This document shows, piece after piece, positions 4,187 through 20,050 of a stretch of DNA of 64,000 nt (positions are counted from its first letter, which is position 1; each line of letters opens with the position of its first letter). The stretch covers positions 1,975,501-2,039,500 of the forward strand of contig NZ_CP029551.1 in assembly GCF_003173735.1 (NCBI RefSeq), in the 5' to 3' direction. The stretch comes from Methylobacterium radiodurans (GTDB lineage: Bacteria > Pseudomonadota > Alphaproteobacteria > Rhizobiales > Beijerinckiaceae). The position numbers and the translations under genes are program-made. Under the pieces are notes generated by a model that was not told where the DNA came from, searched no databases, and saw nothing but the letters and a program-made list of their open reading frames with translations.

Positions 4187-5880
4187 ACCGCGCCGACGCC
4201 TCGCAGGAGTACGATGCCGACGTGATCGTCGTCGGCGCCGGGCCCATCGGCCTCACGACCGGCAATGCCCTGCGCCACCACGGCGTCTCGTGCCTGCTCC
4301 TGGAGGAGCGCACCGGCCCTAAGGCGTACTCGCGGGCCAACAACCTCTGGGCACGCCCGCAGGAGCTGCTCGCCGGTATCGGGCTTCGCGACGCCCTGGC
4401 CGAGAACAGCTACGCCATCGACACCATCAACTTCTTCGTCAACGGCCGGCCGACGACAGCCATCCCCATCTCCGACGTCGTCAGTCCCTACCCGAAGGTG
4501 CTCTACAGCGGGCAGGACGTGATCGAGCGGACCCTGACCGCGGAGTTCGAGCGGCGGGGCGGCCGGCTCGACCGAGGCTGCACCGTGACCGACGTCGTCC
4601 AGGACGAGAGCGGCGTCACGGTGGTGCTTCAGCGAGGCAAGGACGGGCCGCAGGAGCAACGCCGCTGCCGCTACCTCGTGGCCGCCGATGGCGCCAAGAG
4701 CACCATCCGGCCGATGCTCGACCTGGATTTCGAGCCAGTGCGGCTGCCGAACTGCATGAACCGGCAGGTCGACGCCAGGCTGTCCTGGCGCCGCTCGCAG
4801 GAGCCCGACCAGCTCTGGTTCTTCTACTACGAGCGGGGTTTCGCGGGCATCCTGCCGGTCTGGGGCGGCTATCACCGGCTGTTCTTCCTGGCCGACGACA
4901 CCGGCGTGCCGGACCGTGACCCGACGCTCGACGAGATGCAGGCGGTGGCGCGCGAGGTCACGGGCGACGAGACCCTCACCCTGTCGGACCCGCAATGGCT
5001 CACCCATAGCCGCTTCCAGTACGGGGTCTCGCCCCGCTACGCCCGCGGCCGCGTCTTCCTGGCGGGCGATGCCGGGCACCTGTCCCTGCCCATCGGCGGC
5101 CATGGCATGAACGCGGGCCTGCACGACGCGGTGGAGATCGCGTGGCGGCTCGCCATGACACTGCGCGGCGAGGCGGCGCCGGTGATCCTCGATTCCTACG
5201 ACGGCGAGCGGGGTGGCGAGCACGCCCGGCTGAGCGCCCAGCAGGCGCGCGGGTTCCGGTGGACCGTCTACCGCGGTCCGGTCACTGACACGGTGTTGGG
5301 GCTGGCCGCGAAGGCTCTGCCGAACCTGGGTTCGCTGCTGCAGGGTACGGACGACATGCAGCAGATAGGGGTCGAGTACCCGAAGAGCCTCCTGAACGAG
5401 GACCGCCTGTCGGGCCTGGCGAGCTTGCTCCGGCCGGGGCCGAAGCCCGGCGAGCGTGCGCCAGACGCAGAGGTGACGCACGGCGGAGAGACCACGAGCC
5501 TGTTCCGGTTCCTCTACAACCCGGACAGCCACACGACCGGTTGGGCTCTCTTGTGCTTCGATGGTCGGTCCTCGGATGCGAGTGCCTCGCTGCTCGACGC
5601 CGTCGAGGCCGTGACGCCCTGGACCTGGGTGCGGCCGCGCCTCGTCTTGGCCGGCGCCATGGTCGATGGTGCGGGCGTCCCCGTCCTCTCGGACATGGAC
5701 GGCAAGGCGCAAGGGGCCTACGGGCTGGAAGGTCGGCCGGCCTTGGTGCTCGTTCGCCCGGACGGGCACATCGCCTTCCGCGGCGACGCCGACCGGGCCG
5801 ACCGGTTGGTCGCTTACTGCCGGAAGACTTTCGGTGCGGAGCCCGTACGGTCGACGAGCGCGCTCGTCGCCGCTCAATAG
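4183..5880 (+). CDS. FAD-dependent aromatic-ring monooxygenase (PheA/TfdB type)
   Basis: A 565-aa flavoprotein hydroxylase. VIVVGAGPIGLTTGNALRHH (residues about 15-35) is the Rossmann GxGxxG for FAD. YLVAADGAKSTIRPMLDL is the DG motif that contacts FAD and NAD(P)H. GRVFLAGDAGHLSLPIGGHG with MNAGLHDAVEIAWRLA is the GD motif for the ribityl chain. The C-terminal 160 residues resemble the thioredoxin-like domain of phenol hydroxylases. Such enzymes hydroxylate aromatic substrates with NAD(P)H and O2; the substrate cannot be told from sequence. The ATG at 4183 overlaps the MarR stop; the frame is open further upstream to 4039, but that part is the MarR gene out of frame. Likely induced when MarR is released. 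Confidence 0.88.
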   Translation: MNRADASQEYDADVIVVGAGPIGLTTGNALRHHGVSCLLLEERTGPKAYSRANNLWARPQELLAGIGLRDALAENSYAIDTINFFVNGRPTTAIPISDVVSPYPKVLYSGQDVIERTLTAEFERRGGRLDRGCTVTDVVQDESGVTVVLQRGKDGPQEQRRCRYLVAADGAKSTIRPMLDLDFEPVRLPNCMNRQVDARLSWRRSQEPDQLWFFYYERGFAGILPVWGGYHRLFFLADDTGVPDRDPTLDEMQAVAREVTGDETLTLSDPQWLTHSRFQYGVSPRYARGRVFLAGDAGHLSLPIGGHGMNAGLHDAVEIAWRLAMTLRGEAAPVILDSYDGERGGEHARLSAQQARGFRWTVYRGPVTDTVLGLAAKALPNLGSLLQGTDDMQQIGVEYPKSLLNEDRLSGLASLLRPGPKPGERAPDAEVTHGGETTSLFRFLYNPDSHTTGWALLCFDGRSSDASASLLDAVEAVTPWTWVRPRLVLAGAMVDGAGVPVLSDMDGKAQGAYGLEGRPALVLVRPDGHIAFRGDADRADRLVAYCRKTFGAEPVRSTSALVAAQ

Positions 5881-6656: not shown

Positions 6657-7445
6657 CTAAAAGCGGACGCTCCGAAGGTCCGGATCGGGGAAGACCCTGG
6701 CATCCTCCCTGGCGATTCCTCTCAGTACCTCAATGGCCCTGGGGGTGAGTGCTACCGTTCTAGCGTGACCAATCTTGGTGACTGGGAGGTGTGCCGTTCG
6801 CCGCTCAAGGCTGACATGGGCCCACTTAAGGCTGAGCAATTCGCCCCGCCTCATGCCTGTCTCGATGGCAAGCTCGATGATCGGCCGCAGGTACCACGCA
6901 TGGGCTGACCTGATGGCGGCACTCAGCTTTTGACCGTCGTCCTGCTCAAGGCGTCTGTCTCGGGCTTTGGATGGCTTAGGCAGGCCGATGCTCAGAACCG
7001 GGTTGCTGGACAGCGGGGCATCCCACTCTCGCATAGCCACGGTCAGGCAGTGCCGCAGGATGGTCAGCTCACGCCTCACCGAATCGCCGCTTACGACAGC
7101 CAGCCGGTCATCACGGTAGCGAGCAACAAGCCCAGGGGAGAGCTTGACCAGGGAAGCCTCCGATATGGCGTGGGATAGGAGGGTCCTGATGCGTGATTGC
7201 TCCGCCCTGGCCCCTCGCTTGGCCGGTGTGACACTCGCCTCGTATCGCTTGAGGAGATCCCCTACGGTCAGACCCGCTGCCTGCCTTGGGCATGCCGGGA
7301 GTTCAGCCCTCTCAATGGCTCGCTCCTTCTCCCTCGCCCAGGAGAGTGCGTCAGCCTTGGTGCTGAAGGATTTTGAGATTGGTGGGTAGCCGTCTCGCCT
7401 GACCTGAACCTGCCAGGACGAGCCTCGCCTGCGTATGGTCGCCAT
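6657..7445 (-). pseudogene. Tyrosine recombinase, C-terminally truncated
   Basis: A 262-aa integrase-like frame. It has an arm-binding N-terminus (IRRRGSSWQVQVRRDGYPP), a SAM-like core-binding domain (LTVGDLLKRYEASVTP to NPVLSIGLPKPSKARDRRL) and the start of the catalytic domain, with the first catalytic Arg in AIETGMRRGELLSLKW. It stops at RSVRF, before the HxxR box and the nucleophilic Tyr, so it should be inactive. It reads away from the tRNA-derived repeat at 7553-7598, whose far side holds the intact island integrase, so the two integrases lie back to back around the same att site. This suggests an earlier element that used the same tRNA gene. Two GTGACAG repeats follow its start. Confidence 0.8.
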
Positions 7446-7484: not shown

Positions 7485-7552
7485 GCTGATCTACTAGGGA
7501 CCTTCGTCTGGCAGCTAAGCCTAAAACCTTGAGGTCTTTCAGAGACTTAGAG

Positions 7553-7598
7553 TGGCGCACCCGACACGATTCGAACGTGTGACCTTTGCCTTCGGAGG
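7553..7598. repeat. attL: 46-bp copy of the tRNA-Arg 3' end
   Basis: Identical to 19974-20019. It covers the encoded CCA, acceptor 3' strand, T-arm, variable region and part of the anticodon stem of the tRNA read on the minus strand. Similarity ends abruptly after TTCGGAGG, so this is a duplicated att core and not a functional tRNA. Confidence 0.92.
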
Positions 7599-7647: not shown

Positions 7648-7719
7648 TAAGCCTCTGACCTAACTTGTGAAATCTGCCGGATCGGCTTTTCCCTCGTTTG
7701 CGGCCGGCGGCGGCGATTT

Positions 7720-7748
7720 GCTTCCGCGTGCTTCCGCAGTGCTTCCGC
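7720..7748. repeat. Three GCTTCCGC direct repeats, probable integrase arm sites
   Basis: GCTTCCGC lies at 7720-7727, 7730-7737 and 7741-7748, spaced 10 and 11 bases so all face one side of the helix, just before the integrase start. The same octamer occurs twice at 19907-19925 inside the other island end. Confidence 0.6.
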
Positions 7749-7766
7749 AGCGCGAGGGGATGGGGG

Positions 7767-9005
7767 ATGCCAAGGATCACGAAGCGGCTCGTTGAGGCCG
7801 CCGAGCCGAACGGCCGGGACTACTTCATCTGGTGCGACGAGCTGCCGGGCTTCGGCATCCGGATCTTCGCCTCAGGACGACGCAGCTACCTCGTCCAGTA
7901 CCGGGCCAACGGACGCAGCCGGCGCGCGACGATCGGCCTGCACGGAGCCCTGACGGCGGACGAGGCGCGTCGCGAGGCCAAGGCGCTTCTCGGTCAGGTC
8001 GCGCGCGGGGAGGATCCCGCGGAGGAGCGCGCCACGCGTCGCGCCTCTTTGACCATCGCCGAGCTCTGCGACCGCTACCTCGACGCCGTCGACAAGGGAC
8101 TGATCATGGGCAAGCGCGGCGCCGCGAAGAAGGCCTCGACCCTCTACGTCGATCGCGGCCGGATCGAACGGCACATCAAGCCGCTGCTCGGCCGGCGCCT
8201 GGTCGCCGAGTTGACGCAGCCGGACGTGCAGCGCTTCGTGCGGGACGTCCAAGCCGGCAAGACGGCTGGCGTGATCAAGACGGGCTTCCGCGGCAAGGCG
8301 GTGGTGGAGGGCGGCCCTGGCACGGCAGCTCGCACCGTGGGCCTGCTGGGCGGGATCCTGAGCTTCGCGATCAGCGAGCAGATCATCACCGCGAACCCGG
8401 CCGCCGGGGTGAAGCGGCCGGCTGACAAGAAGCGGAAGCGGCGGCTAGCACCCGAGGAGTACGCCGCCCTAGGCAAGGTGCTGCTGGCGGCCGAGGGCGA
8501 TGGATCCGAGCGCTGGCAGGCCGTGGCTGGCATCCGCCTTCTGGCTCTTACCGGCTGCCGTCTTGGGGAGATCGTGCGGCTGCGCTGGTCGGAGATCGAT
8601 GCGGCCGGGTCCTGTCTGCGGCTGGAGGAGACGAAGGAGGGCGCCTCGGTGCGACCGCTCGGCAAGGCCGCCGCGGCGGTGCTGGAGCGGCTGCAGCGCG
8701 TTCCTGGCTTGCCCTACGTGCTGCCGGCGGCCCGCGGTATCGGCGCCTTCACCAGCCTGCCCGATGCGCTTGAGCGGATCACAGAACGCGCTGGCCTGGA
8801 GGGCGTCACGGCTCACACCCTGCGCCACTCCTTCGCCTCTACGGCCGGCGACCTCGGCTACAGTGATTCGACGATCGGGGCGATGCTCGGCCACGCTGGG
8901 CATGGCGTGACCTCTCGGTACATTCACCACCTTGATGCGGTGCTCATCGCGGCCGCGGATCGGGTGGCGGACCGGGTGGCCACCTGCTTGGCTGGCGGGC
9001 CGTAG
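7767..9005 (+). CDS. Island integrase, tyrosine recombinase (P4-type)
   Basis: A 412-aa site-specific recombinase that would cut and join the att cores at tRNA-Arg. The N-terminal DUF4102-like arm-binding domain (LVEAAEPNGRDYFIWCDELPG, residues about 8-80) is followed by the core-binding domain (LTIAELCDRYLDAV onward). The catalytic domain has the first Arg in LTGCRLGEIVRLRW, the HxxR box in HTLRHSFA, the second His in MLGHAGHGVTSRY and the nucleophile Tyr in SRYIHH. All catalytic residues are present. The ATG at 7767 is preferred because AGGGGATGGGGG precedes it; the frame stays open to 7698. It lies directly inside attL and is convergent with the flagellin gene. Confidence 0.93.
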   Translation: MPRITKRLVEAAEPNGRDYFIWCDELPGFGIRIFASGRRSYLVQYRANGRSRRATIGLHGALTADEARREAKALLGQVARGEDPAEERATRRASLTIAELCDRYLDAVDKGLIMGKRGAAKKASTLYVDRGRIERHIKPLLGRRLVAELTQPDVQRFVRDVQAGKTAGVIKTGFRGKAVVEGGPGTAARTVGLLGGILSFAISEQIITANPAAGVKRPADKKRKRRLAPEEYAALGKVLLAAEGDGSERWQAVAGIRLLALTGCRLGEIVRLRWSEIDAAGSCLRLEETKEGASVRPLGKAAAAVLERLQRVPGLPYVLPAARGIGAFTSLPDALERITERAGLEGVTAHTLRHSFASTAGDLGYSDSTIGAMLGHAGHGVTSRYIHHLDAVLIAAADRVADRVATCLAGGP

Positions 9006-9060: not shown

Positions 9061-11619
9061 TCAGCGCAGGAGCTGCAGGATGCCCTGCTGCGCCTGATTG
9101 GCGAGCGACAGCGCCGAGACGGCCAGCGAGTTGCGGGTCGAGAGCGCCTGGGAGTTGGCTGCCTCCTCGTTCATGTCGGCGTTGACAAGGTTTGCCGAGC
9201 CTGTATCGAGGATGTTGATCATCTGCTTCGAGAAGTCCTGCCGGTTCTGCACGATCGTAAGATTCGAGCCGAACGTCGAAGACTGCGTACGAAGCTTGGC
9301 AGTTGCGTCCGTAAGTTGTTGCATTGCAACATTGATCTCGTCGTCGTTTTGGAAGTTATTGACGACTGACTTCAATCCAAGTCCGTCCGCATCGTACTTC
9401 ACGCCGGCAATGTTTAGATTTGAGGTTCCTTTTTCGTTGAAGGTTACCTTCAGGCTATTTTCGTTCACGTCAGAGCTGGTGCGCGACAGAAGATTGATAC
9501 CGTTGTACCCAGAGTCTTGAGCCTGCTGGGTGATCTGAGCGAGTAGGTTGTTGAACTGGGCCGCAAGGGTCGCCCTTGTGGAGCTATTGCCCTTGGCACC
9601 TCCGATATCAGTTCCAGTGCTCGGAATAGCAGCAGTTCCAGAGGTGCCAAATCCTATATCGATGTTTCCTCCAGCCTTGAGCGTGAGCATTTGATCGGAG
9701 CCAAATGCCGTCGTCTGAACGGTCAGCTTGTCGTTAACGAAGGAAGCTTTGACCTTACCGCTGAGCCCCGTATCCTGGGAAATCTGGTAGTTGATGGCCT
9801 GCGCGAGCTTGGCCTGACTCGGAGAACCCCCGAGTGTCGTCCCATTGCTGTCGATGACAGTTCCGGAAGCAAGGCTGATGGTTTTATCGTTGCCGTTTCC
9901 GAGCTTGAGGGTGAATGACGCGTTTGGCGCCTGACCGCTGACCTGCGTCGTGAAGTCGAAAGCTTTAGTGCTGGTATTGTAAATCGAACCAAGAGCAGAG
10001 CCAGTGATGGATGCTTTGGACGACCCGTCCGAAGCATCAGCGCCGGTGTTGGTAATCACCGCTGAGGCAGTACCACCGCCTGCGGTAAAAGCTCCCGTTG
10101 TGGCATTGGTTGAGCTAAAGCCAAGACCGATCGAATCGTTAGTCGTCGAGATAAGAAGGTCTGTGGCGGTATTTGCGGTCGATGTGAACTTCAAGGCGTT
10201 ACCAACAACAGTTACGTTGATGCCCGCAGTTGCGGCCGTAAGCTGATCTTGGATAGCCTGAGCCACTTGAGCTTGAGTCGGATTAGGGCCGAGCGTATTG
10301 CCGCTTGCTGTTGTGGTCGAATCAATCTTGATATCGGTCGCAACGCCGGCTGTATTTGTGATGCTGAAATTGGCGCTTTTTCCAGAGCTCAGATCCACGT
10401 TGGCGAGCAGGGTTGCTGCTCCTGTGATGCTGGAAAAAGTCGAGGTTCCGTTGCCTGTCGTCTTGGACGTTGGCGCGTTCGACGCCACTGTCTCGAAGCC
10501 GAGCCCAGTTCCCGATGCTGATGCACCCGTACCAGCTGTTGTAGTATCGGTGATGCCGCTGATCGACAGCTGGGCATCAAGGCCTTTGTCAGCAGTAACA
10601 AAAACTATCTTGTCAGCGTTCCCGGCGCCGTCTGCAGCAGTCGTGCCGAGCCGAGCTGTTACCGACGATCCACGATCCGAGAGCTGCTTGTTGATGGCTT
10701 TGATGATGTCGTCTTTGGTCGCCGAAGTAACAGGGGGCGTACCTGCCGTTGTTCCGAGAACGCCTCCGATGTTATCCGTTGGTGAATTCGCATTTAAAGT
10801 TACCGTTACAGACTTCGAGCCGTCGCCGATCGTAAAGCTTGCGGTCTTGCCATTTGTAAAGTCGGTAGCTGTAGCGAGAGCCGCGCCTGCAACGATCTTT
10901 GCTGCAGTGGTCGTTGCCGACTTGCCAAAACCAATGTCTGTATTGGCATTCGCGGAGCCATTGACAGAAACCTGCGAGGTCGAGCCGGTGTCTGTAGTGG
11001 TGAAACTTAAGCGGCCGTTGGTTCCGATCGATGCCGTCACTTTGCCAGACAAATTCGAGCTAGCTGCAATCTGGCCATTGATTGCCGTAAGAAGCTGATC
11101 CTGTGTAACGTTAGCAGTATTGTTAGTCACATTCTTGAGCGTCGAAGAGTCGAGGCGAATAGTTGCTTTGGTGGCGCCGCCGTCGAGCGAGATATCAAGC
11201 GATGCGTCCTTGTCGAGGCTTGAAAGGTCGTATGTCGTGCTCAGCGTGCTCGTGCCCGTCACGATAGCAGCCTGGGCCGGAACGCCGCCGACGATCGTAC
11301 CCTTCGTACCGCTCTTGTCGGCAAGCGCTTGACTCGCCGTGGACTTCGCCGAATCAACCAGCTTCTGAATCGAGGTGATGCCTTGGTTCGCAGCCTGGAT
11401 GGTCTGGATGCCATTCGAGATGCCGTCGAGCAGGTTGCTCAGATCCGACGAGCGCGCCGTGAGGCTCTGCGAGGTGAAGAAGTTCGTCGGGTTGTCGAGG
11501 GCCGAAGTCACCTTCTTGCCGGTTGAGAGGCGGCTCTGCGTGGTCGACAGCAGCGAGGCCGTGTCCTGCAGAGAGAGCAGGTTCTGCCGCGTCGCGGCAG
11601 AGAGGGTGATGCTAGACAT
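9061..11619 (-). CDS. Flagellin with four hook-IN-like repeats (island copy)
   Basis: An 852-aa filament subunit. The N-terminal D0/D1 helix begins MSSITLSAATRQNLLSLQ and includes LSTGKKVTSALDNPTNFFTS. The C-terminal D0 ends LSTRNSLAVSALSLANQAQQ and then GILQLLR. Between them lie about four units of roughly 110-130 residues of the hook-IN type, each with SFTIGDG-like strands, an AINxQL helix and a closing DIGFG-like turn. Both ends nearly match the 1346-aa flagellin at 42812-46852, even in DNA, while the central DNA is visibly richer in A/T at third positions. The start is set at the ATG at 11619; the frame stays open upstream. It is divergent from flbT and is the main identifiable cargo of the island. 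Confidence 0.93.
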   Translation of the reverse strand: MSSITLSAATRQNLLSLQDTASLLSTTQSRLSTGKKVTSALDNPTNFFTSQSLTARSSDLSNLLDGISNGIQTIQAANQGITSIQKLVDSAKSTASQALADKSGTKGTIVGGVPAQAAIVTGTSTLSTTYDLSSLDKDASLDISLDGGATKATIRLDSSTLKNVTNNTANVTQDQLLTAINGQIAASSNLSGKVTASIGTNGRLSFTTTDTGSTSQVSVNGSANANTDIGFGKSATTTAAKIVAGAALATATDFTNGKTASFTIGDGSKSVTVTLNANSPTDNIGGVLGTTAGTPPVTSATKDDIIKAINKQLSDRGSSVTARLGTTAADGAGNADKIVFVTADKGLDAQLSISGITDTTTAGTGASASGTGLGFETVASNAPTSKTTGNGTSTFSSITGAATLLANVDLSSGKSANFSITNTAGVATDIKIDSTTTASGNTLGPNPTQAQVAQAIQDQLTAATAGINVTVVGNALKFTSTANTATDLLISTTNDSIGLGFSSTNATTGAFTAGGGTASAVITNTGADASDGSSKASITGSALGSIYNTSTKAFDFTTQVSGQAPNASFTLKLGNGNDKTISLASGTVIDSNGTTLGGSPSQAKLAQAINYQISQDTGLSGKVKASFVNDKLTVQTTAFGSDQMLTLKAGGNIDIGFGTSGTAAIPSTGTDIGGAKGNSSTRATLAAQFNNLLAQITQQAQDSGYNGINLLSRTSSDVNENSLKVTFNEKGTSNLNIAGVKYDADGLGLKSVVNNFQNDDEINVAMQQLTDATAKLRTQSSTFGSNLTIVQNRQDFSKQMINILDTGSANLVNADMNEEAANSQALSTRNSLAVSALSLANQAQQGILQLLR

Positions 11620-11784
11620 CGATGGTCCGTTTCTACGGTTTGTGATCCGCCATATTGCGGCCACGCCCAAGATGCGCCGTGCGCCTTGCCGATTTCCTAA
11701 GCCGCTCCGAGAGCCTGTCGATCCGTTTCGAGATCGTTAACAAATCCCTCATAAAACCGATGGACGTCCAACAGAGGATTGGCC

Positions 11785-12186
11785 ATGGGGCTCCGCATCA
11801 CGCTAAAGCCGAACGAGAGGCTCATCATCAATGGAGCTTCAATTCGGAACGGCAATCGGAACAGCGACTTCCTCATTGAATCGCACAGCAAGTTTCTGCG
11901 AGAGAGCGAGATCCTGCATGAGAGTGAAGCCGATACGCCTTCAAAAAAGCTCTGGGTAACGTTGCAGGTCATGTATTTGACCGACCACCGCGCGGAGGTC
12001 GAAGATCTCTTCTACAAGCAAGCGACTGCGATCATGAGTATGATGCCGGAGGCGGCACCCTTCATGGCGCAAATGCAGAGTGCGATTACGGAGGGGCACT
12101 TCCACAAGGCCATAAAAGTCTGCAAGCAGCTCGCAAGAGTCGAGCAGGAGCTCGCTGAAGGCCAAGCTAGCGTGCAGGCCGCTTGA
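11785..12186 (+). CDS. flbT: Flagellar biosynthesis repressor FlbT
   Basis: A 133-aa protein matching FlbT: MGLRITLKPNERLIINGASI at the start, SDFLIESHSKFLRESEIL, and TPSKKLWVTLQVMYLTD. In Caulobacter FlbT binds flagellin mRNA leaders and restrains flagellin translation until the hook is complete, with FlaF acting oppositely. In other alphaproteobacteria it can be needed for flagellin production. Here it is divergent from the island flagellin, so the element brings the structural gene with a regulator. No flaF is present. The ATG at 11785 is preceded by AGAGGA at the right distance; an in-frame TTG at 11779 is possible. Confidence 0.93.
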   Translation: MGLRITLKPNERLIINGASIRNGNRNSDFLIESHSKFLRESEILHESEADTPSKKLWVTLQVMYLTDHRAEVEDLFYKQATAIMSMMPEAAPFMAQMQSAITEGHFHKAIKVCKQLARVEQELAEGQASVQAA

Positions 12187-12203
12187 GGCGACGCGGCGGC
12201 CTT

Positions 12204-12368
12204 CTACCAAGCTGCCCACATCCGGTAGCGGTTGCCGAGCGCGTCCACCCGATTGCCGACATCCCCCAGCGCTACAGGTGTGGCTGCCAACGCAAGTCCG
12301 GCCCGGCCAGGCGGCTCGTCCTCTGCAATGACGTGGGCGACAGCGCCAAGCGTGATCGCGGACCACAT
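12204..12368 (-). CDS. Small hypothetical protein (54 aa)
   Basis: A short frame from ATG at 12368 to TAG at 12204, reading MWSAITLGAVAHVIAEDEPP and then ALAATPVALGDVGNRVDALG. Its composition is more protein-like than the overlapping plus-strand frames, and it has the same orientation as the four minus-strand genes upstream. No Shine-Dalgarno is visible and no family is recognised. It could be non-coding. Confidence 0.35.
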   Translation of the reverse strand: MWSAITLGAVAHVIAEDEPPGRAGLALAATPVALGDVGNRVDALGNRYRMWAAW

Positions 12369-12479
12369 GGAGGGGCAGATCGAGCAGCTGCAAGAGCGGG
12401 CCGACGCGGCCGGCTCGCTGCGCGAGGCTTGCTGATGCCTCGCGTCTGACGGCGAGCACCATCTCAGCGTGAGCTGGCC

Positions 12480-12773
12480 TCAGGTCGTGCTCAATCCCAC
12501 TGAGCCGTCAGCCCGGTTGAGCGCGGTGACGCGTGGACCGCCGCCCCCGCCCTGCAACTGCTCCCACGCATCCAGGGCTCCGTTGGCCGCATCGATGATA
12601 TCGCGAGGCGTGCCACCTGGGACCTCGGGCCGGATCGCCTCGACGAGCCGGGTCACCAGCGTCTGCTCGCTCTGGGGATGCCTGCCGCCCTCGGCTTGGC
12701 GCATGTACGCCGCGAAGACGTTCTCGGCGATCGTGCGTGCCGTCCGATCAACCTCAGGCGTGTCCTGCTCCAT
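12480..12773 (-). CDS. Hypothetical protein (97 aa)
   Basis: A soluble, largely helical 97-residue protein: RTIAENVFAAYMRQAEGGRH, then LVTRLVEAIRPEVPGGTPRD and AANGALDAWEQLQGGGGGPR. No family is recognised. It is the fourth in a minus-strand series of small island genes starting at 13716. The Gly-rich part before the C-terminus is likely a flexible tail. Confidence 0.55.
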   Translation of the reverse strand: MEQDTPEVDRTARTIAENVFAAYMRQAEGGRHPQSEQTLVTRLVEAIRPEVPGGTPRDIIDAANGALDAWEQLQGGGGGPRVTALNRADGSVGLSTT

Positions 12774-12866
12774 TGCTCAAGCTCTTCAGTTCACCAATAT
12801 GCCAGACAGGTTCAACCCAGCAGGGAGCAACCCCGTTCATCGATGGAAGCCAGGAAGCGGCTCTCC

Positions 12867-13223
12867 TCACAACCCCACCCAAAATGCGCCACCGATAACC
12901 ATGGCGGTGGCGACAATGAAGCCAGCGAAGGCGGGCATGACCCAACTGCGCTGGCCATGCGGGTCAGCCGCGTCCCGTGTCGCGCGCGTTGCGGCCGCAG
13001 TCTTTCGCGCCAGGGCGATCCGCTCGGGCGTAGGGGGTGTGCCGGCAGCCTCATCGCAGGTGCCGAGCTGCACCATCCCGACATCGTAGTGCTCGACCTT
13101 GTCGCCTGTGGCGCCGCTATCGATGTCCGCCTTCAGCATGGCCGTCGTCGGGTTGTCGGACGCGGGCGGCGTGTCGACCAGCAGATTGGCTGGCGGTGGT
13201 TGGGTCTCGGAACGGGATACCAT
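12867..13223 (-). CDS. Hypothetical protein with a C-terminal membrane anchor (118 aa)
   Basis: A hydrophilic N-terminal region rich in Pro, Thr and Asp is followed by a charged helix (PERIALARKTAAATRATRDAA) and one membrane segment at the very end (WVMPAFAGFIVATAMVIGGA then FWVGL), as in tail-anchored proteins. The ATG at 13223 is chosen for the GAGGAG Shine-Dalgarno seven bases before it; the frame is open to a possible start at 13253. No family is recognised. The gene lies in the minus-strand cargo run. Confidence 0.6.
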   Translation of the reverse strand: MVSRSETQPPPANLLVDTPPASDNPTTAMLKADIDSGATGDKVEHYDVGMVQLGTCDEAAGTPPTPERIALARKTAAATRATRDAADPHGQRSWVMPAFAGFIVATAMVIGGAFWVGL

Positions 13224-13321
13224 GGCGGAGCTCCTCGGCATACGAAGTGCCAAGCCGTGGGCCGGCGGCTTCGTTCAGGAGGTGCGACTCGGTGGTGGGC
13301 TGACGTGCATAGGGAAGATCC

Positions 13322-13597
13322 TCATGCGGTCTGCCCAGCAGCATGAGGCTGCTCGACCCGCTTGGCGACTTCCGTGATGACGTACTCCACCGAAAGCGGC
13401 CACGGCACGTCATTGTCTAGGAGCGCCCGCGCAGCACGGACCAGCATGACGAACTGCTCGGGTGGGATGGGCTCGCCAGCTGCATTCAGCTGAAGGATGC
13501 GGTCGGCGATCATCGCCGCAAGCCGCGCGACCTCAGCCATTCGTTCAGGCTGGCCGCTGGCGTCCGTCACTTCAGGTAGTTCTTGGTTCGGAGCCAC
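13322..13597 (-). CDS. Hypothetical protein (91 aa)
   Basis: Predicted helical and soluble: AEVARLAAMIADRILQLNAA, then PPEQFVMLVRAARALLDNDV. The start drawn is a GTG at 13597 that lies inside the end of the ribbon-helix-helix gene (31-base overlap), which would couple the two; an ATG at 13540 is an alternative. No family is recognised. It could act with its small DNA-binding neighbour, but nothing in the sequence shows this. Confidence 0.55.
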   Translation of the reverse strand: MAPNQELPEVTDASGQPERMAEVARLAAMIADRILQLNAAGEPIPPEQFVMLVRAARALLDNDVPWPLSVEYVITEVAKRVEQPHAAGQTA

Positions 13598-13716
13598 TCG
13601 ACAAGGATCTTCTCAACCAACGATGAGACTGAACGCAGATCATCCTTAGCCGCCTGTTCGAGGGCGACCTTGGTTTCGGGCTGCACCCGGATCCCGAGCG
13701 ACGGCGTCTTCGCCAT
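13567..13716 (-). CDS. Ribbon-helix-helix DNA-binding protein (49 aa)
   Basis: A 49-residue protein: MAKTPSLGIRVQPETKVALE, then AAKDDLRSVSSLVEKILVEW, ending RTKNYLK. A short beta strand (SLGIRVQ) followed by two helices with a SVSSLVEKIL turn is the Arc/MetJ/CopG ribbon-helix-helix pattern. Such proteins dimerise and insert the strand into the DNA major groove. Directly upstream (13724-13767) lies a perfect 13-bp inverted repeat, so autoregulation is likely. It heads the minus-strand cargo run, and its stop overlaps the start of the next gene. It could also be the antitoxin of a pair, but the following gene does not resemble a known toxin. Confidence 0.75.
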   Translation of the reverse strand: MAKTPSLGIRVQPETKVALEQAAKDDLRSVSSLVEKILVEWLRTKNYLK

Positions 13717-13723
13717 TCCAACT

Positions 13724-13767
13724 TTTACCTACAATGACGTTGACATCGTTCCGACATTGTAGGTAAA
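13724..13767. promoter_or_regulatory. Perfect 13-bp inverted repeat, likely RHH operator
   Basis: Arms TTTACCTACAATG (13724-13736) and CATTGTAGGTAAA (13755-13767) are exact inverted copies separated by 18 bases. The site ends 8 bases before the start of the ribbon-helix-helix gene and would overlap its promoter. The surrounding DNA is markedly AT-rich for this region. Confidence 0.7.
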
Positions 13768-13858
13768 TCGAGGTGCGTTCGCAAGAACGAAACGGCCCGG
13801 CAGGAGGGTTAGGAGCCTCCAGCCGAGCCTGACCACGCACGTCGAGGCATGACGCAAC

Positions 13859-14125
13859 ATGGCTATCCGACATTCTACAGCACCGGCCCGCGCCGGTGAA
13901 CGCTCCCGCTCGCCCGCAGCGCTCTATTCGCGCCCTCAGCCGGTCATCGAGCCGGACGAGGCTGCGCCTGGCACCGTCGAGGCCTGGGAGGCGATCGCGC
14001 CGATCCGGCCGGACACTGCTCATGCCCGCGCGCCGCGCTTCCTAGACGTGGCCGGCGAACTGCTGGTGGGCTTCTCGATCGTCGCCGGGGGCGTGCTCGC
14101 CTACGGCCACCTGCCAGTCGCGTGA
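13859..14125 (+). CDS. Hypothetical protein with one C-terminal membrane segment (88 aa)
   Basis: A disordered, Arg/Pro/Ala-rich N-terminal half (ARAGERSRSPAALYSRPQPV) is followed by one hydrophobic segment near the end (FLDVAGELLVGFSIVAGGVL). The start is ATG 13859 with GAGG 11 bases upstream, a little far. The next gene follows 12 bases after its stop with a strong Shine-Dalgarno, so the two may form an operon. No family is recognised. Confidence 0.5.
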   Translation: MAIRHSTAPARAGERSRSPAALYSRPQPVIEPDEAAPGTVEAWEAIAPIRPDTAHARAPRFLDVAGELLVGFSIVAGGVLAYGHLPVA

Positions 14126-14137
14126 GGGGAGGGGAGC

Positions 14138-14656
14138 ATGTCAGCAGCACGCAAGACCGCCTACTCGCCGCAACATGCGGGTCTGCGCGAGCGGGCGAGT
14201 GCCTCACGCGAGTCAATCACGCGAGTGCCTCGCAAAAAGCCGGACTGCTGCCCAGCCGCGGCGCTCGGCAACCTTCTCGATCAAGCTTGGGTCGAGCACG
14301 AGAAGTGGGACGAGCAAATCACGCCAGACAATCGGGCGGTCCTAGGGTTCATGTCCGATGTGACCCTCGAACAGATTCGGGCGCGAGAGATCGCGATCAG
14401 CTTCGCACGTGCTTCCTCACCCGCAGGAATCCTCACACTACTCGCCGTGGCATCTGACGGCCTCGACTCCGCAGCCAACGGAAGCAACCCCACCATACGG
14501 CGGTCAGGTGAGGAGATCGCGCAGCGCTGCCTTTTCTCCATCGCAGCCGCACTCTGCGCAATCACTGGCGAAAAGCGGGATGCAGGGGTCGTGAGGCGCT
14601 ACCTGCCAACGCGGTGCGACCCGCTCTCGATGCTTGATGCGGAGGGGGCCCGATGA
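14138..14656 (+). CDS. Hypothetical protein (172 aa)
   Basis: It starts at ATG 14138 behind GGGGAGGGGAG. A basic N-terminus (RKTAYSPQHAGLRERASASR) precedes a mixed helical region (LGNLLDQAWVEHEKWDEQIT, then REIAISFARASSPAGILTLL). There is no membrane segment and no recognised family. Its stop overlaps the ATG of the next gene (14653-14656). The N-terminal part contains a repeated CGAGTGCCTC DNA segment. Confidence 0.55.
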   Translation: MSAARKTAYSPQHAGLRERASASRESITRVPRKKPDCCPAAALGNLLDQAWVEHEKWDEQITPDNRAVLGFMSDVTLEQIRAREIAISFARASSPAGILTLLAVASDGLDSAANGSNPTIRRSGEEIAQRCLFSIAAALCAITGEKRDAGVVRRYLPTRCDPLSMLDAEGAR

Positions 14657-14907
14657 CAACCGTTGTCCGCTTCCCCCATGGCCGCCGCATGCCGGCCGCC
14701 ACCATCCCGCGCGAGGAGTTCGAGCGGCTGGCCGAGCTCGCCCTCGATGTGGTCGACCGGATCGTCCTGCTGCTCGATCAGGCGGACGGTGATCCTGATG
14801 CCGAAGACGGTGGTGATGCCGAGCCGTCGCTGGGTGCGCCTGCCGGCGGTCCGTCCCAGCGGGCCTGGGCAGCCGGCAACGATCGGGATCTCGAAGTAGG
14901 ACCATGA
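14653..14907 (+). CDS. Hypothetical protein (84 aa)
   Basis: The start overlaps the previous stop in ATGA, so it is translationally coupled. Residues 17-45 (TIPREEFERLAELALDVVDR then IVLLLDQADGD) form an amphipathic helix, followed by an acidic, Gly-rich tail. No family is recognised. Third codon positions are strongly GC, in line with real coding. Confidence 0.55.
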   Translation: MTTVVRFPHGRRMPAATIPREEFERLAELALDVVDRIVLLLDQADGDPDAEDGGDAEPSLGAPAGGPSQRAWAAGNDRDLEVGP

Positions 14908-14926
14908 GAATCTACAAGGGTGCGTG

Positions 14927-14965
14927 TTGACACCATCGTTCTACTATGGTGGAACTAAGGTGTCA
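14927..14965 (+). promoter_or_regulatory. TTGACA box inside a TGACACC/GGTGTCA inverted repeat
   Basis: TTGACA at 14927-14932 resembles a -35 hexamer. It overlaps the left arm of a perfect 7-bp inverted repeat (14928-14934 and 14959-14965), which spans the region where a promoter for the gene at 14990 would sit. Inner short pairs (ACCAT/ATGGT, GTTC/GAAC) strengthen the dyad. The likely ligand is the HTH protein just downstream; no clear -10 is seen. Confidence 0.45.
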
Positions 14966-14989
14966 GCCCGCACCCAATCGGAGTGCCCT

Positions 14990-15604
14990 ATGCCCGATCT
15001 GTCCCGCAGCCAGTTCTGCGAAATCACGTGTCTCTCGCCGGACGCGTTGAAGTCGCTGACCCGGCGAGGTCAGATCCCGTTCATGGTTGACCAAAAAGCT
15101 TCAGGGCGCGGTTACACCCTGTTCGAGGCGTTCCTGATGATCCTGGCGAACGAGTTCGTTGAGGGGCACGGGGTCAATTTGACGCGAGCTGCCGAAATCG
15201 CTGCAGCGGTCCCGGCGGTTTTGGAGCCGGAGTGGTCACGCGTTGTCGAGACAGCTGAAAAGCTATTCGAACGCGATGGAGCAGGTGTCGATCCGATTAT
15301 GTGCGGCCGGTGCCAGTCGGCCGGACCGGAGCGCGCCGAGCCCATCTGCGGGACTCATGACGAGATTGCGCAGAAGCTCAAGGCCTCAGGCAAGATGAAC
15401 GCACGCTTGACCTTATCCAGCGCCTCTCACGCGCTTGCCACCCTCATTAGGCGAGCGCTCAACAATCAGATCGAGATCCCTGAAGAGTTTTGGTCGACAC
15501 CATTCTCCTTCCGCGAGCGCGCTCGGACCGATTGGGCGGGGATTACTAATATGAAGAAGCTCATTGCTGAAGGTGAGCACCTGAAACACGACGCCGAGTC
15601 CTAG
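14990..15604 (+). CDS. MerR-like HTH protein of unknown function (204 aa)
   Basis: The N-terminus SRSQFCEITCLSPDALKSLT followed by RRGQIPF resembles a MerR/excisionase winged helix (helix-turn-helix, then a wing-like turn before GYTLFEAFLMILANEF). The remaining 130 residues are unrecognised and contain CGRC and ICGTHDE but no obvious metal site. ATG 14990 is preferred for GGAG seven bases upstream; the frame is open to 14924, but that part overlaps the promoter dyad. It may repress its own promoter and sense an unknown signal. Island-borne. Confidence 0.6.
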   Translation: MPDLSRSQFCEITCLSPDALKSLTRRGQIPFMVDQKASGRGYTLFEAFLMILANEFVEGHGVNLTRAAEIAAAVPAVLEPEWSRVVETAEKLFERDGAGVDPIMCGRCQSAGPERAEPICGTHDEIAQKLKASGKMNARLTLSSASHALATLIRRALNNQIEIPEEFWSTPFSFRERARTDWAGITNMKKLIAEGEHLKHDAES

Positions 15605-15660
15605 GGCCGTACTCGCGGCTTCGGGCCTGCCTGAAGCACTGAATTCTTAGGAGCTGCAAA

Positions 15661-16074
15661 ATGACGAGCGTTGAACAGCCCCTCTCGAGGGGTCCGGCGG
15701 AGCCTTGCCCAAAGCCTGCAGCCGGCAAGCCTCGGCTGCGCCGCTGGGAGGCGAGCCGGCATCTCCGGGACCGCCACGGGATCGAGTTGGCGGTCTCCAC
15801 CTTGGCAAAGCTCGCCTGCCTCGGCGGCGGGCCGCCCTTCCAGAAGGCCGGGCGCGTGCCGCTCTACCCGGTCGACCTCCTCGACGCCTGGGCCACTGCA
15901 CGCCTCGGCCGCGTCGTTCACTCGACCTCGGAGGATGTGCGCCAAGCTGACCGAGGCGGCTACCCAGGCCACCCGCGCGGTCGAGATGCAAGGCCGGCAG
16001 ATCACCGCCCTGATGAGCTGCGTGGCGGGGCTCTCCCGCGAGATGGAGGAGCGCTGCGGTGTGGATCGCGCTGA
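15661..16074 (+). CDS. Small AlpA/excisionase-like HTH protein, probably frameshifted at its end
   Basis: Residues 24-80 ([20 protein letters not shown] then [20 protein letters not shown] and [16 protein letters not shown]) form the small HTH typical of excisionase/AlpA-like proteins in alphaproteobacterial islands. After [10 protein letters not shown] the frame continues for about 45 residues of Arg/Gly/Asp-rich sequence that looks like out-of-frame translation. Meanwhile the +1 frame (15935-16234) continues with sensible helical protein. Either the real gene ends soon after residue 92 and the tail is an artefact, or a frameshift split one gene in two. Likely role: regulation or directionality of island excision. 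Confidence 0.6.
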
Positions 16075-16234
16075 GCTGGTCGAGACCGCCCTGACTGCGA
16101 TGCGGGCCGAGATGGGCTCGGATCCGGAGCGGGATAGCGTGTTGCGCAGCCTGCTCGGGCAGACCCGTCAGGCACCAGCGGAGAAGGGGGCGCCCGGTCC
16201 GGCGCTACGGCTGATCCCGGGTGGGAAGGTCTGA
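15935..16234 (+). CDS. Helical protein overlapping the HTH gene in another frame (99 aa)
   Basis: Sequence [20 protein letters not shown], then [20 protein letters not shown] and [20 protein letters not shown]: amphipathic helices, possibly a coiled coil. The ATG at 15935 has GGAGG touching it with no spacing, which is poor for initiation. This supports the idea that it is the second half of the preceding HTH gene, reached by frameshift. No family is recognised. Confidence 0.5.
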
Positions 16235-16395
16235 CAGTGGAGGCGCCTTGCGTCAGCACCGGCCGCATCGCGCAGGCGTTCGTGAACTCGCCCTCGGTGG
16301 GTGAATCATGAGGCCGCTCTGTGCGCCTGAGCAGCCGCCTTGCAAATGATGAAAGCACGACGCATTTGCAGCAGCCGCGGTTAGCCCCTCATCGG

Positions 16396-17022
16396 CTACC
16401 GCTGGTCCGTCATCTCGGGCAGCTCGAAGGTGTCCCCGTAGCCCGGCGGGTTGCGTATCTGCGCGATGTGCCGCCCAGTCTCGGCCATCTGGTCATCGAA
16501 GCGCTGCTGCGCCTCACCCATTGCCGCTTCCGAGTTCACGACGAGCAGCCCGCGCAGGCCCCGCAGCACGTTCATGAGCTGCGATAGGATCAGCCCGGAG
16601 ATGTAGCCGAGGACCGCGTTTGCCCAGCGCGCATCGACTGCCCATCCTTCGTAAGAGAAGGCCACGGCAGGCGCGCAGGTGCCGCCGCCCGGCGGGCACG
16701 CCACGTACGGCTTGAGCATGACGACGAAGGCGACCCCGGCGAAGCTCATGATCACGAGCCCGGCCCAGAAATCCATCTGCTGCTCCAGGTTCTTGCGTAG
16801 CTGGATCAGACGCTTGATGGACATGCCGCTGCCGCGCAGGGATGTGGCGGTCAGCGCCATGGCCGGCAGGACGGCCGCGATCACGAAGCCGAAGAGGTTG
16901 ATCAGCTCGCCGCTCACCGTCGCGATAAAGTCCGGAGGCGCGAACCGCGCGGCAGCGGCAGCCATGACGGCGGCGACCGTCAAGCCCTTCCATCTGCCGA
17001 CCAGCTTGCGAACCCTGCTCAC
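16396..17022 (-). CDS. Four-helix membrane protein, unknown family (208 aa)
   Basis: Four hydrophobic segments are visible: LTVAAVMAAAAARF, LINLFGFVIAAVLPAMALTA, WAGLVIMSFAGVAFVVML and LGYISGLILSQLMNVL. A basic cytoplasmic loop follows the second (SIKRLIQLRKNLEQQ), a short Cys-containing loop (ACPPGGGTCAP) lies between the third and fourth, and a charged soluble tail ends the protein. The GTG at 17022 lies two bases after the stop of the upstream gene; a GTG at 17067 would overlap it. It forms a tight pair with the 333-aa protein. Possible roles are a membrane effector or anchor; no family is recognised. Confidence 0.65.
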   Translation of the reverse strand: MSRVRKLVGRWKGLTVAAVMAAAAARFAPPDFIATVSGELINLFGFVIAAVLPAMALTATSLRGSGMSIKRLIQLRKNLEQQMDFWAGLVIMSFAGVAFVVMLKPYVACPPGGGTCAPAVAFSYEGWAVDARWANAVLGYISGLILSQLMNVLRGLRGLLVVNSEAAMGEAQQRFDDQMAETGRHIAQIRNPPGYGDTFELPEMTDQR

Positions 17023-17024
17023 GT

Positions 17025-18026
17025 CTAGACGTAACCTTGTCTGTTGAAATGGTTGAAGGCGTCCCACAGGGCGCCGGAGATGCTTGGCCGATCGAAAAGT
17101 TCGCCTTCAGTCTCGACTTGCGCGGGGTAAGCCACCCGCTTGATGTGGCCCGACCGCTCGCGGCCCGCATGAGAATATAGGGTCAATTCGTCTTCGGGAA
17201 CGTCTCGGATCAAGTCAGAGACCTGATCCCTCGAAATTTCATACTTCGAGCCGTCAGATTTGAAGTACACCTCCAGCTTGAGCTCTATGTCGACGCCCTC
17301 CGCTTCGAGGGCTGCGATGCGCTCGTCCGTGAAATGCGCCGCCTTCAGTATCCCGAACACGGTCGAGCCGGATAGCCGCTCGGTGTCGGCCCGAGTTTCG
17401 GCGGTCCGCACCTGTCCCGGCCCGGCGCGCATCTCCGCTGCATCAGCTGCCTCGCGCGGGCGAAGGACCATCCGCTGCACCGAGGGCAACTCCTCGATGT
17501 TGACGGTCGGCGTGAACCGGAGCGAGAGATCGGGGGTGGAGATCCCGGTCTTAGTGCCCAGCATCCACTCCAAGAAGGCCTCGTTCCGGTTCATCGCGAT
17601 TTCGCGGTTCACGTACAGGAAGTGGTCGCCGATTAGCAGTGCGTATAGAAACCCGCGGATCAGCTCGGTGCCCTGAGGCGTGTTCGCATTGCGCAGCTGG
17701 TACTCACTGCCGCCGGCACCCGTCTGGATCAGCGGGATGCGCGACCCCGGCGCGAAGCGGACGATTTCCAAGAAGATGCCGCGTGGCATGACCTGCGCAG
17801 AGTTCATCACAAGACTTCCGTAGTCTTGAAACTGATCGTACCGCCTATGACTCGCGTCCGTGCTTACCTGAACACCACCAATTCGCCTGCCCAAGCTTGC
17901 TCTCAGCGCCTGCTCCAAGCTTGGGAAGTTTAGATCACCTCTGCGAACATTTGCCTTTGAGTAAAGTACGTTGATACCGCGAGCCACGTTCACGATCCCA
18001 TCTCTAGCTTTGAGCTTAGAGATCAC
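17025..18026 (-). CDS. Unknown soluble protein (333 aa), partner of the membrane protein
   Basis: No family is recognised. It has no signal peptide or membrane segment. The N-terminal third is basic. The middle has LEIVRFAPGSRIPLIQ, GTELIRGFLYALLIGDHFLY and VNREIAMNRNEAFLEWML. The C-terminal part has ELKLEVYFKSDGSKYEISRD with QVSDLIRDVPEDELTLYSHA, a plausible small alpha/beta domain. The start is a GTG at 18026 without a clear Shine-Dalgarno. The membrane-protein gene follows within two bases and a WYL-like gene precedes it on the same strand. A two-gene soluble-plus-membrane layout on an island is common among anti-phage systems, but that role is inference. Confidence 0.65.
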   Translation of the reverse strand: MISKLKARDGIVNVARGINVLYSKANVRRGDLNFPSLEQALRASLGRRIGGVQVSTDASHRRYDQFQDYGSLVMNSAQVMPRGIFLEIVRFAPGSRIPLIQTGAGGSEYQLRNANTPQGTELIRGFLYALLIGDHFLYVNREIAMNRNEAFLEWMLGTKTGISTPDLSLRFTPTVNIEELPSVQRMVLRPREAADAAEMRAGPGQVRTAETRADTERLSGSTVFGILKAAHFTDERIAALEAEGVDIELKLEVYFKSDGSKYEISRDQVSDLIRDVPEDELTLYSHAGRERSGHIKRVAYPAQVETEGELFDRPSISGALWDAFNHFNRQGYV

Positions 18027-18192
18027 GGATCGAGAGCGGAGTCAGCGAGCAACCCGTCTTTTCCCGCTAATTCTCAACCTTACCGCTACGCGCCAGCATT
18101 TTGCCGTGACCGAGCGCCGTCCTGTCTGTCCGCCCCTGTTTGTTCGTCGTTTGTTCTATATCGCGACGAGCCAGGTGATTGCAAGGGTAGCG

Positions 18193-19074
18193 TCAATGCA
18201 AGGTCGTGAAGTGCACCTCCGGGTTTGCGATCCGCAGCCCAGTCCCAAGGTCCGTGAGGCTCAGAATTCGGTCCGTGCGGAACTCTCTGCGCTCTCCCCG
18301 CAGGTAGCAGTGCGCGTGCAGCCGCACGCAATCCGCATCCTCCGTCACGCGCTCGAGCCGGATCTGCCGCTCCGTCACTCCTCCCCATGCATCGGCGTAG
18401 AGCAGCAGGTACTTCGAGCCCCGCAGTGAGTGTCCGCCACGAGCAGGCGTTTTGCGGGGCCGCTGAGCCGCCCGGATAGAGATCGGCGCGGACGCTGTCT
18501 GAGCGGGCGGGGCCGACGGGGACTGCGCCTTCGCGGTCGCGCCCCGGCTCGGCAACTTTGCGGCTGCCCGCGCGCCGCGGAGCAAATCCTTCGAGGTCAA
18601 CCGCTGCGGCTCAGGCATCGGTGGTGGCACATAGTGCATCGGTTGCGTGGGCGGCGGCGGCGGCGGTGTCGGCACGGGCACGCCCATCACGACCGGCACT
18701 GGTGTCGGCGCCGGCGGAGCGGCCGAGGGCGCCTGCGGTCTGGGGAGGGGCGGGAAGCGGTGCGTGAAGTCGTTTCTCCATGACGCTGTAGGCGGCGGCC
18801 CCTGCCTCGGCGCCAGCAGGTTCGGCATCAAGGCGGGAAGGTTCGGCACTGGAGCAGGTGGCGGCTCGATGATCTGTGTCGGCGCGGGTTCCGCGACCGG
18901 CAGTGCTACGAGCGCAGCGGGCGGCGCCTCAACTTCTAGCAGTGTGTCGGAAGCGTCTCCTGCGAATGCCAGGATCTGACCGCGTTGCTTGGCGCGCTGT
19001 CTGCGGAGCCCCACGACCAAGCCGAAACCACCGAGCGAGACAAGGATCCCGGCGAGCGTGTAGAGCGGCGGCAT
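18193..19074 (-). CDS. Membrane-tethered WYL-like domain protein (293 aa)
   Basis: One N-terminal membrane segment (LYTLAGILVSLGGFGLVVGL) is followed by basic residues (RRQRAKQRG), so the rest should be cytoplasmic. About 140 residues are a Pro-rich linker. The C-terminal 75 residues resemble a WYL domain: KYLLLYADAWGGVTERQIRL, then CVRLHAHCYLRGERREFRTD and RILSLTDLGTG. WYL domains bind nucleic acid or nucleotide ligands and often regulate defence genes, usually fused to a winged helix, not to a membrane anchor. No HTH is present. The ATG at 19074 has no visible Shine-Dalgarno. It sits 166 bases upstream of the 333-aa gene on the same strand. Confidence 0.65.
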   Translation of the reverse strand: MPPLYTLAGILVSLGGFGLVVGLRRQRAKQRGQILAFAGDASDTLLEVEAPPAALVALPVAEPAPTQIIEPPPAPVPNLPALMPNLLAPRQGPPPTASWRNDFTHRFPPLPRPQAPSAAPPAPTPVPVVMGVPVPTPPPPPPTQPMHYVPPPMPEPQRLTSKDLLRGARAAAKLPSRGATAKAQSPSAPPAQTASAPISIRAAQRPRKTPARGGHSLRGSKYLLLYADAWGGVTERQIRLERVTEDADCVRLHAHCYLRGERREFRTDRILSLTDLGTGLRIANPEVHFTTLH

Positions 19075-19542: not shown

Positions 19543-19785
19543 TCAGCCACCCGGCGTCCAGTCGATCTTCGGCCTCTGCGACAGGATGCGCTCGAAATAG
19601 TTGGCCACCGCCTGCGCCCCGTCCGCGTGCATCATGGCGACCGGATGGGCGAGATAGGCCCGGGCTAGGTCGAGCGGGATCTCGCCGGCCTGAAGCGCGC
19701 TGAGCACCACGTCGATGAAGGCGTCGTTGGCCTCGTTGAAGTCGGACGAGAGCTTCTTGCGATCGTTCAGGGCCTTGATCGGCAT
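19543..19785 (-). CDS. Hypothetical protein (80 aa)
   Basis: A small helical protein: KLSSDFNEANDAFIDVVLSA, then GEIPLDLARAYLAHPVAMMH and ANYFERILSQRPKID. ATG 19785 has AGAGAAG a short way upstream. It is the first gene on the right side of the island and precedes the HTH gene in the same orientation. No family is recognised. Confidence 0.5.
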   Translation of the reverse strand: MPIKALNDRKKLSSDFNEANDAFIDVVLSALQAGEIPLDLARAYLAHPVAMMHADGAQAVANYFERILSQRPKIDWTPGG

Positions 19786-19925: not shown

Positions 19926-19973
19926 AACCCTGCTGCCAGCCGGGCTGCAAACTAGCTAAGTCATTGAGAAGAT

Positions 19974-20019
19974 TGGCGCACCCGACACGATTCGAACGTG
20001 TGACCTTTGCCTTCGGAGG
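19974..20019. repeat. attR: 46-bp core within tRNA-Arg
   Basis: Identical to 7553-7598. It forms the 3' part of the intact tRNA-Arg gene, so integration left the tRNA functional. Confidence 0.92.
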
Positions 20020-20050
20020 GCAACGCTCTATCCAGCTGAGCTACGGGTGC
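19974..20050 (-). tRNA. tRNA-Arg (anticodon CCG), CCA encoded
   Basis: Read on the minus strand: acceptor stem GCACCCG pairing with CGGGTGC, discriminator G and encoded CCA; D-arm with AGCTCAGCTGGATAGAGC; anticodon stem TTGCC with loop CTCCGAA; T-loop GTTCGAATC. 77 nt. It reads CGG codons. Its 3' end is the integration site of the genomic island. Confidence 0.95.

Follow-up and report, generated by a model that had tools for sequence, protein, structure and literature searches.

An integrative element at a tRNA-Arg gene of Methylobacterium radiodurans carries two adjoining genes, for a soluble protein (S) and a membrane protein (M), that probably constitute a phage-exclusion system of the RexAB type. 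The stretch of DNA analysed, here called the window, comprises 64,000 nucleotides (contig NZ_CP029551.1, positions 1,975,501 to 2,039,500), and the coordinates of the pair and its island are window positions. S is the product of the open reading frame (ORF) at 17025-18026 on the minus strand (333 amino acids (aa) as called) and is RexA-like in its predicted fold; M, encoded at 16396-17022 on the same strand, is a putative RexB-like membrane protein of 208 aa with four helices predicted in its structure model. In an earlier reading made without database searches (the sequence-only reading) these genes and a WYL-like gene had been proposed as an undescribed island system. The soluble-plus-membrane pair was borne out as a conserved two-gene unit with mobile-element genes and, in some cases, defence genes around it. 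The label 'undescribed' had to be given up, as RexAB-type exclusion is suggested by the fold predicted for S, by the order of the two genes and by their place after CI in a lambdoid phage. New here is a pair that is Rex-like by fold and order, divergent in sequence and located on an integrase island with no adjoining CI gene.

Conservation and genomic context of the S-M pair

Homologues of S and M were checked for co-occurrence and are found together; the outcome that would have refuted the proposal, that they never co-occur, did not appear. The relatives of S are 61-72% identical to it (own copy aside) and belong to Methylobacterium wherever the source names them. S and M relatives in the database lie on contigs of equal size (515,342, 19,726, 6,115,872 and 201,303 bases), in two of the four with neighbouring locus tags (R1A27_08540/08535 and FF100_21310/21305). 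Among 111 genomes of the genus the S profile matched in six and the M profile in five, the own genome counted in both, and all five are within the six; the remaining one, G521, has a short S, and its contig stops 106 bases past this gene. The hypergeometric chance of this overlap is 5e-8 if relatedness is ignored. The pair is rare and patchy: a search with the single S sequence matched in 4 of 99 relatives (own included), the family phrog_3482 in 3 of 385 at class level (own not matched) and the profile A5 in 7 of 398 at phylum level (own included).

Eighteen cellular loci were readable (the window, L006 on an Azospirillum plasmid, L011-L014, L022-L024, L026-L029 and L064-L068), after exclusion of L025, which lies at a contig end, and of the decayed copy L007. 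M follows directly after S in all 18, L029 being a remote member (profile E 1.7e-10). In M. terricola (L011, 10040-11656) S is broken into two frames and M is open; if the assembly is right, M without a working S is tolerated there. The excluded L007 holds a decayed S-gene remnant at 4574-5786 on a Zymomonas mobilis plasmid.

The same order was found in phages, where S is followed by a hydrophobic protein in 14/14 viral loci (L015 and L081-L093). In Shigella phage SfIV (L092) this protein has just 108 aa and precedes an IS1 transposase gene, and the M of L085 is identical to that of L068, so that these two loci are not independent. With a profile built from 24 cellular S proteins, S was detected in all 13 loci L081-L093 (E below 1e-37), and hhalign joined the cellular to the viral S set with a probability of 100. 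Direct tblastn of S and of its distant relative P0020 against GenBank phages gave no match; the phage relatives had to be reached by way of family members from a different class. A scan of viral contigs with A4 likewise gave no relative.

In lambda the order is cI, rexA, rexB. In Escherichia phage Perceval, CI is followed by the S relative (340 aa), a 'transmembrane protein' (168 aa) and then Kil, Gam and Bet, the pair thus occupying the lambda position behind CI. Acinetobacter phage phi1_092021 has a repressor, a 71-aa gene, the S relative and a 167-aa protein. A repressor-like gene lies upstream of S in five of the 13 loci L081-L093, called by annotation in L091 and L093 and by our own reading in L082, L089 and L090. 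The cellular loci L066 and L068 lie in prophages, with PHROG matches that include portal and head proteins and, for L066, also a repressor and an endolysin.

Other copies adjoin defence genes. In Azospirillum, Shedu SduA (E 2e-171) begins 297 bases past M, with Vsr, an NsnA-type protein and a cytosine methylase farther away; in Sphingomonas sp. AX6, DISARM DrmB and DrmA adjoin the pair; type II restriction-modification genes are near the pair in L028 and L065; and a methylase immediately precedes S in L015. The Sphingomonas pair (L013) stands between tRNA-Phe (8928-9003) and drmB/drmA, in a span from 9683 to 17019. The defence scan covered 20 neighbour proteins from 10 of the 17 non-window cellular loci and from L015. 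Twelve of them were named defence genes (in four of the 10 cellular loci and in L015), two gave weaker or less specific matches (a phospholipase-type effector in L012 and mad2 in L022) and six gave none. These neighbours were picked by eye, and the defence-gene neighbourhood is no more than suggestive.

Predicted structures and proposed relation to RexAB

The sequence-only reading could name no family for S or M, and none was provided by Pfam, PADLOC, NCBIfam or PHROGs, the Pfam matches of S and M relatives being weak and below cut-off. S matched phrog_3482, a family of unassigned function, with E 1.7e-4, and P0020 matched it over its length with 7e-62. Sequence searches of the PDB gave nothing credible (best E 0.035), and neither S nor M matched any model of PADLOC or Pfam, which should include those of Kiwa (KwaA/KwaB), at E up to 1, no structural comparison with KwaA/KwaB being made.

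In the structure comparison of the S model, RexA ranked first with a lead of 3.5 Z units over the second chain, and the rows next after it were RexA's reported relatives. The modelled S thus appears to have the RexA (RdgC-like) fold expected of the soluble partner. Foldseek against viral models returned four uncharacterized phage proteins (E 1e-8 to 4e-5). The description of M as a four-helix protein was fair, since its structure model has four long helices; the hydropathy scan gave two membrane segments in the window M and two to four in relatives. A partner with about four predicted transmembrane helices was accordingly found directly downstream of S.

As in lambda RexA-RexB, a soluble protein is followed by a membrane protein in the same order, the predicted fold of S matches RexA, and M, like RexB, has up to four membrane segments. 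M has 181-215 aa in the relatives compared, whereas three RexB proteins have 142-144 aa, and no sequence homology of S-M to the lambda proteins was detectable.

Several results weigh against a RexAB-type system. Unlike lambda rexAB, the window pair sits on an integrase island and has no CI gene adjoining it, and the pairs in L012, L027 and L064 lie among apparent housekeeping genes. The S model is of moderate quality, with a predicted local distance difference test score (pLDDT) of 69.5, a predicted template modelling score (pTM) of 0.65 and a poor middle part, and Foldseek of S against the PDB gave no match at E 0.001, RexA being absent among the 50 matches listed. The structure matches of M are generic helix bundles only and are uninformative. 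S scored 13.3 against the RexA profile, compared with a mean of 13.6 and a maximum of 18.6 for 60 column shuffles, and no profile link was found between M and RexB.

The S profile scored 16.5 (E 0.2) against the single lambda RexA, and hhalign linked neither S nor M to the Rex proteins of lambda, Butters and Toast; the highest probability, 4.5%, was that of M with the Butters and Toast membrane proteins. As this profile test does not connect lambda-type RexA with its accepted homologues of Butters and Toast either, it cannot decide Rex membership; kinship with Rex rests on predicted fold, gene order and position. RexAB behind a CI repressor is not universal, the arrangement being inverted and separated in Sbash and Butters. 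A soluble sensor with a membrane effector unrelated to Rex, in which the RexA match would be a chance fold resemblance, agrees with the missing sequence homology and the lack of a significant Foldseek match in the PDB. This explanation is considered unlikely in view of the lead of RexA and its relatives in the structure comparison and of the gene order and position in Perceval, which equal those of lambda.

Only five RexAB-like systems have been described so far according to a 2026 paper on Pseudomonas putida (PMC12894663). Compared by published description, RexABpp of P. putida (PP_5643/PP_5644) has a tagged RexA of 37.5 kDa, about the size of S, and a four-helix RexBpp of at least 181 residues, comparable to the four-helix M; its RexA was recognised through a structure match to 8TWQ, and a CI-like repressor lies nearby. 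No fetched protein fits seven of the published RexBpp residues (best 3 of 7). The actinophage Rex homologues share the S-M layout as well: Butters gp30/gp31 have 403/187 aa and overlapping genes, and Toast gp42 and the adjacent gp41 have 337/200 aa, the sizes in both phages being nearer to those of S-M. No sequence link of either to S-M was found.

A possible mechanism and its alternatives

In a scheme modelled on the lambda and P. putida systems, S would detect and M would damage. S may form a dimer of the RexA/RdgC fold that binds DNA and senses a phage replication or recombination intermediate. S in this sensing state would contact and activate M in the inner membrane, where M may assemble into a channel or pore; the loss of membrane integrity or potential would then stop growth and abort the infection.

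In Butters, the roles of the soluble and membrane proteins are reversed relative to the lambda type. By analogy, S could be the toxic or antiviral part, kept inactive at the membrane by M and released on infection, as is reported for gp30/gp31 of mycobacteriophage Butters (PMC12894663). The layout of that pair is shared with S-M, and the sequence does not decide between these roles and those of sensor and effector. Little credence is given to the reversed roles because S has no sequence link to Butters gp30 and because three of the other described systems are lambda-like, with the membrane protein as effector.

An improbable alternative is that the pair mainly tunes the life cycle of the phage or element itself and that exclusion is secondary. 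RexA by itself biases the lambda switch (PMC11077077), and the repressor-like genes upstream of S in five phage loci fit such a role. In contrast, no prophage was seen around the window copy or several others, and some copies adjoin defence genes.

Beyond RexAB-type exclusion by the window pair, the chances are about even that S-M represents a broad branch within the Rex superfamily, unnamed and not recognisable by sequence, which moves among phage immunity regions, prophages, plasmids, tRNA islands and bacterial defence islands. If so, Rex-type exclusion would be a general defence of Pseudomonadota and not a lambdoid curiosity, and an RdgC-fold DNA clamp would be a common infection sensor. 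The trigger of RexAB is a long-standing open question, with the activation mechanism unexplained after 70 years, and a broad second family, some of whose members sit on islands that no prophage controls, would supply many natural variants in which trigger and channel could be separated. A RexAB-type reading would also assign a function to phrog_3482. Among the titles and abstracts listed in searches on Rex systems none describes the S-M family in Alphaproteobacteria, most subscription papers and all preprints lying outside the scope of those searches. The S relative of phage phi1_092021 carries the annotation 'DefenseFinder protein', which shows that a phage representative has already been linked to a defence catalogue by some annotation pipeline and lowers the claim to novelty.

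The island and the WYL-like gene

The three minus-strand ORFs were found where the sequence-only reading had placed them, with S and M separated by two bases and the WYL-like ORF (18193-19074, 293 aa) 166 bases upstream of the S ORF as called (333 aa). The start codon of the S relatives corresponds to the GTG at 17957, and this probable start by homology would give an S of 310 aa and a gap of 235 bases to the WYL-like gene.

The WYL-like protein has the reported N-terminal hydrophobic segment and Pro-rich linker (30% Pro over residues 61-200), and no helix-turn-helix (HTH) family was found in it. The domain match is weak and supports no more than the term 'WYL-like': two WYL-type models of PADLOC matched (E 2e-6 and 1.5e-5), whereas the score for Pfam PF13280, 14 bits, is below the cut-off of 21.8. 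Among the best 7996 candidates by word sharing one relative was found (P0019, 69%), and the only full-length match in the 111 genus genomes is the own copy. A three-gene system with this membrane-tethered protein as sensor or regulator of S-M, suggested by the shared strand and short distance, is highly improbable, as the protein is unmatched in all five other S-bearing genus genomes and the four weak genus matches (L031-L034) are, by our own reading, HTH-plus-WYL proteins. The WYL-like gene was therefore dropped as a system component and is probably separate cargo of the island.

The tRNA-Arg island proved to be real. A pair of 98% identical 50-bp repeats marks its ends, the left copy (7549-7598) repeating the 3' part of the tRNA and forming the attachment site, the right copy (19970-20019) lying inside the target gene tRNA-Arg (CCG; 19974-20050, minus strand) and at its 3' edge. 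The tyrosine integrase (7698-9005, plus strand; Phage_integrase, Arm-DNA-bind_3) starts about 100 bases away from the left repeat. The element spans about 12.4 kb in a host genome of 5.54 Mb (one contig), and its tRNA end holds S, M and the WYL-like gene. In a search that used the right flank alone, the matches in relatives were to tRNA and repeated elements, and no empty site was shown. Promoter and terminator scans gave nothing informative.

A second Phage_integrase piece (6714-7070, minus strand) lies directly outside the left repeat, so that stacked islands are possible. Two small island proteins (19543-19785 and 14653-14907) have close relatives around the M. terricola pair (L011, 9430-9750 and 7037-7312), and the two elements therefore seem to have common backbone genes. 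Additionally, the island carries a long flagellin gene (9061-11670, minus strand, 869 aa) and flbT (11779-12186, plus strand), with a guanine-plus-cytosine content of 55-57% compared to about 65-70% around them, which is odd cargo for an integrase island.
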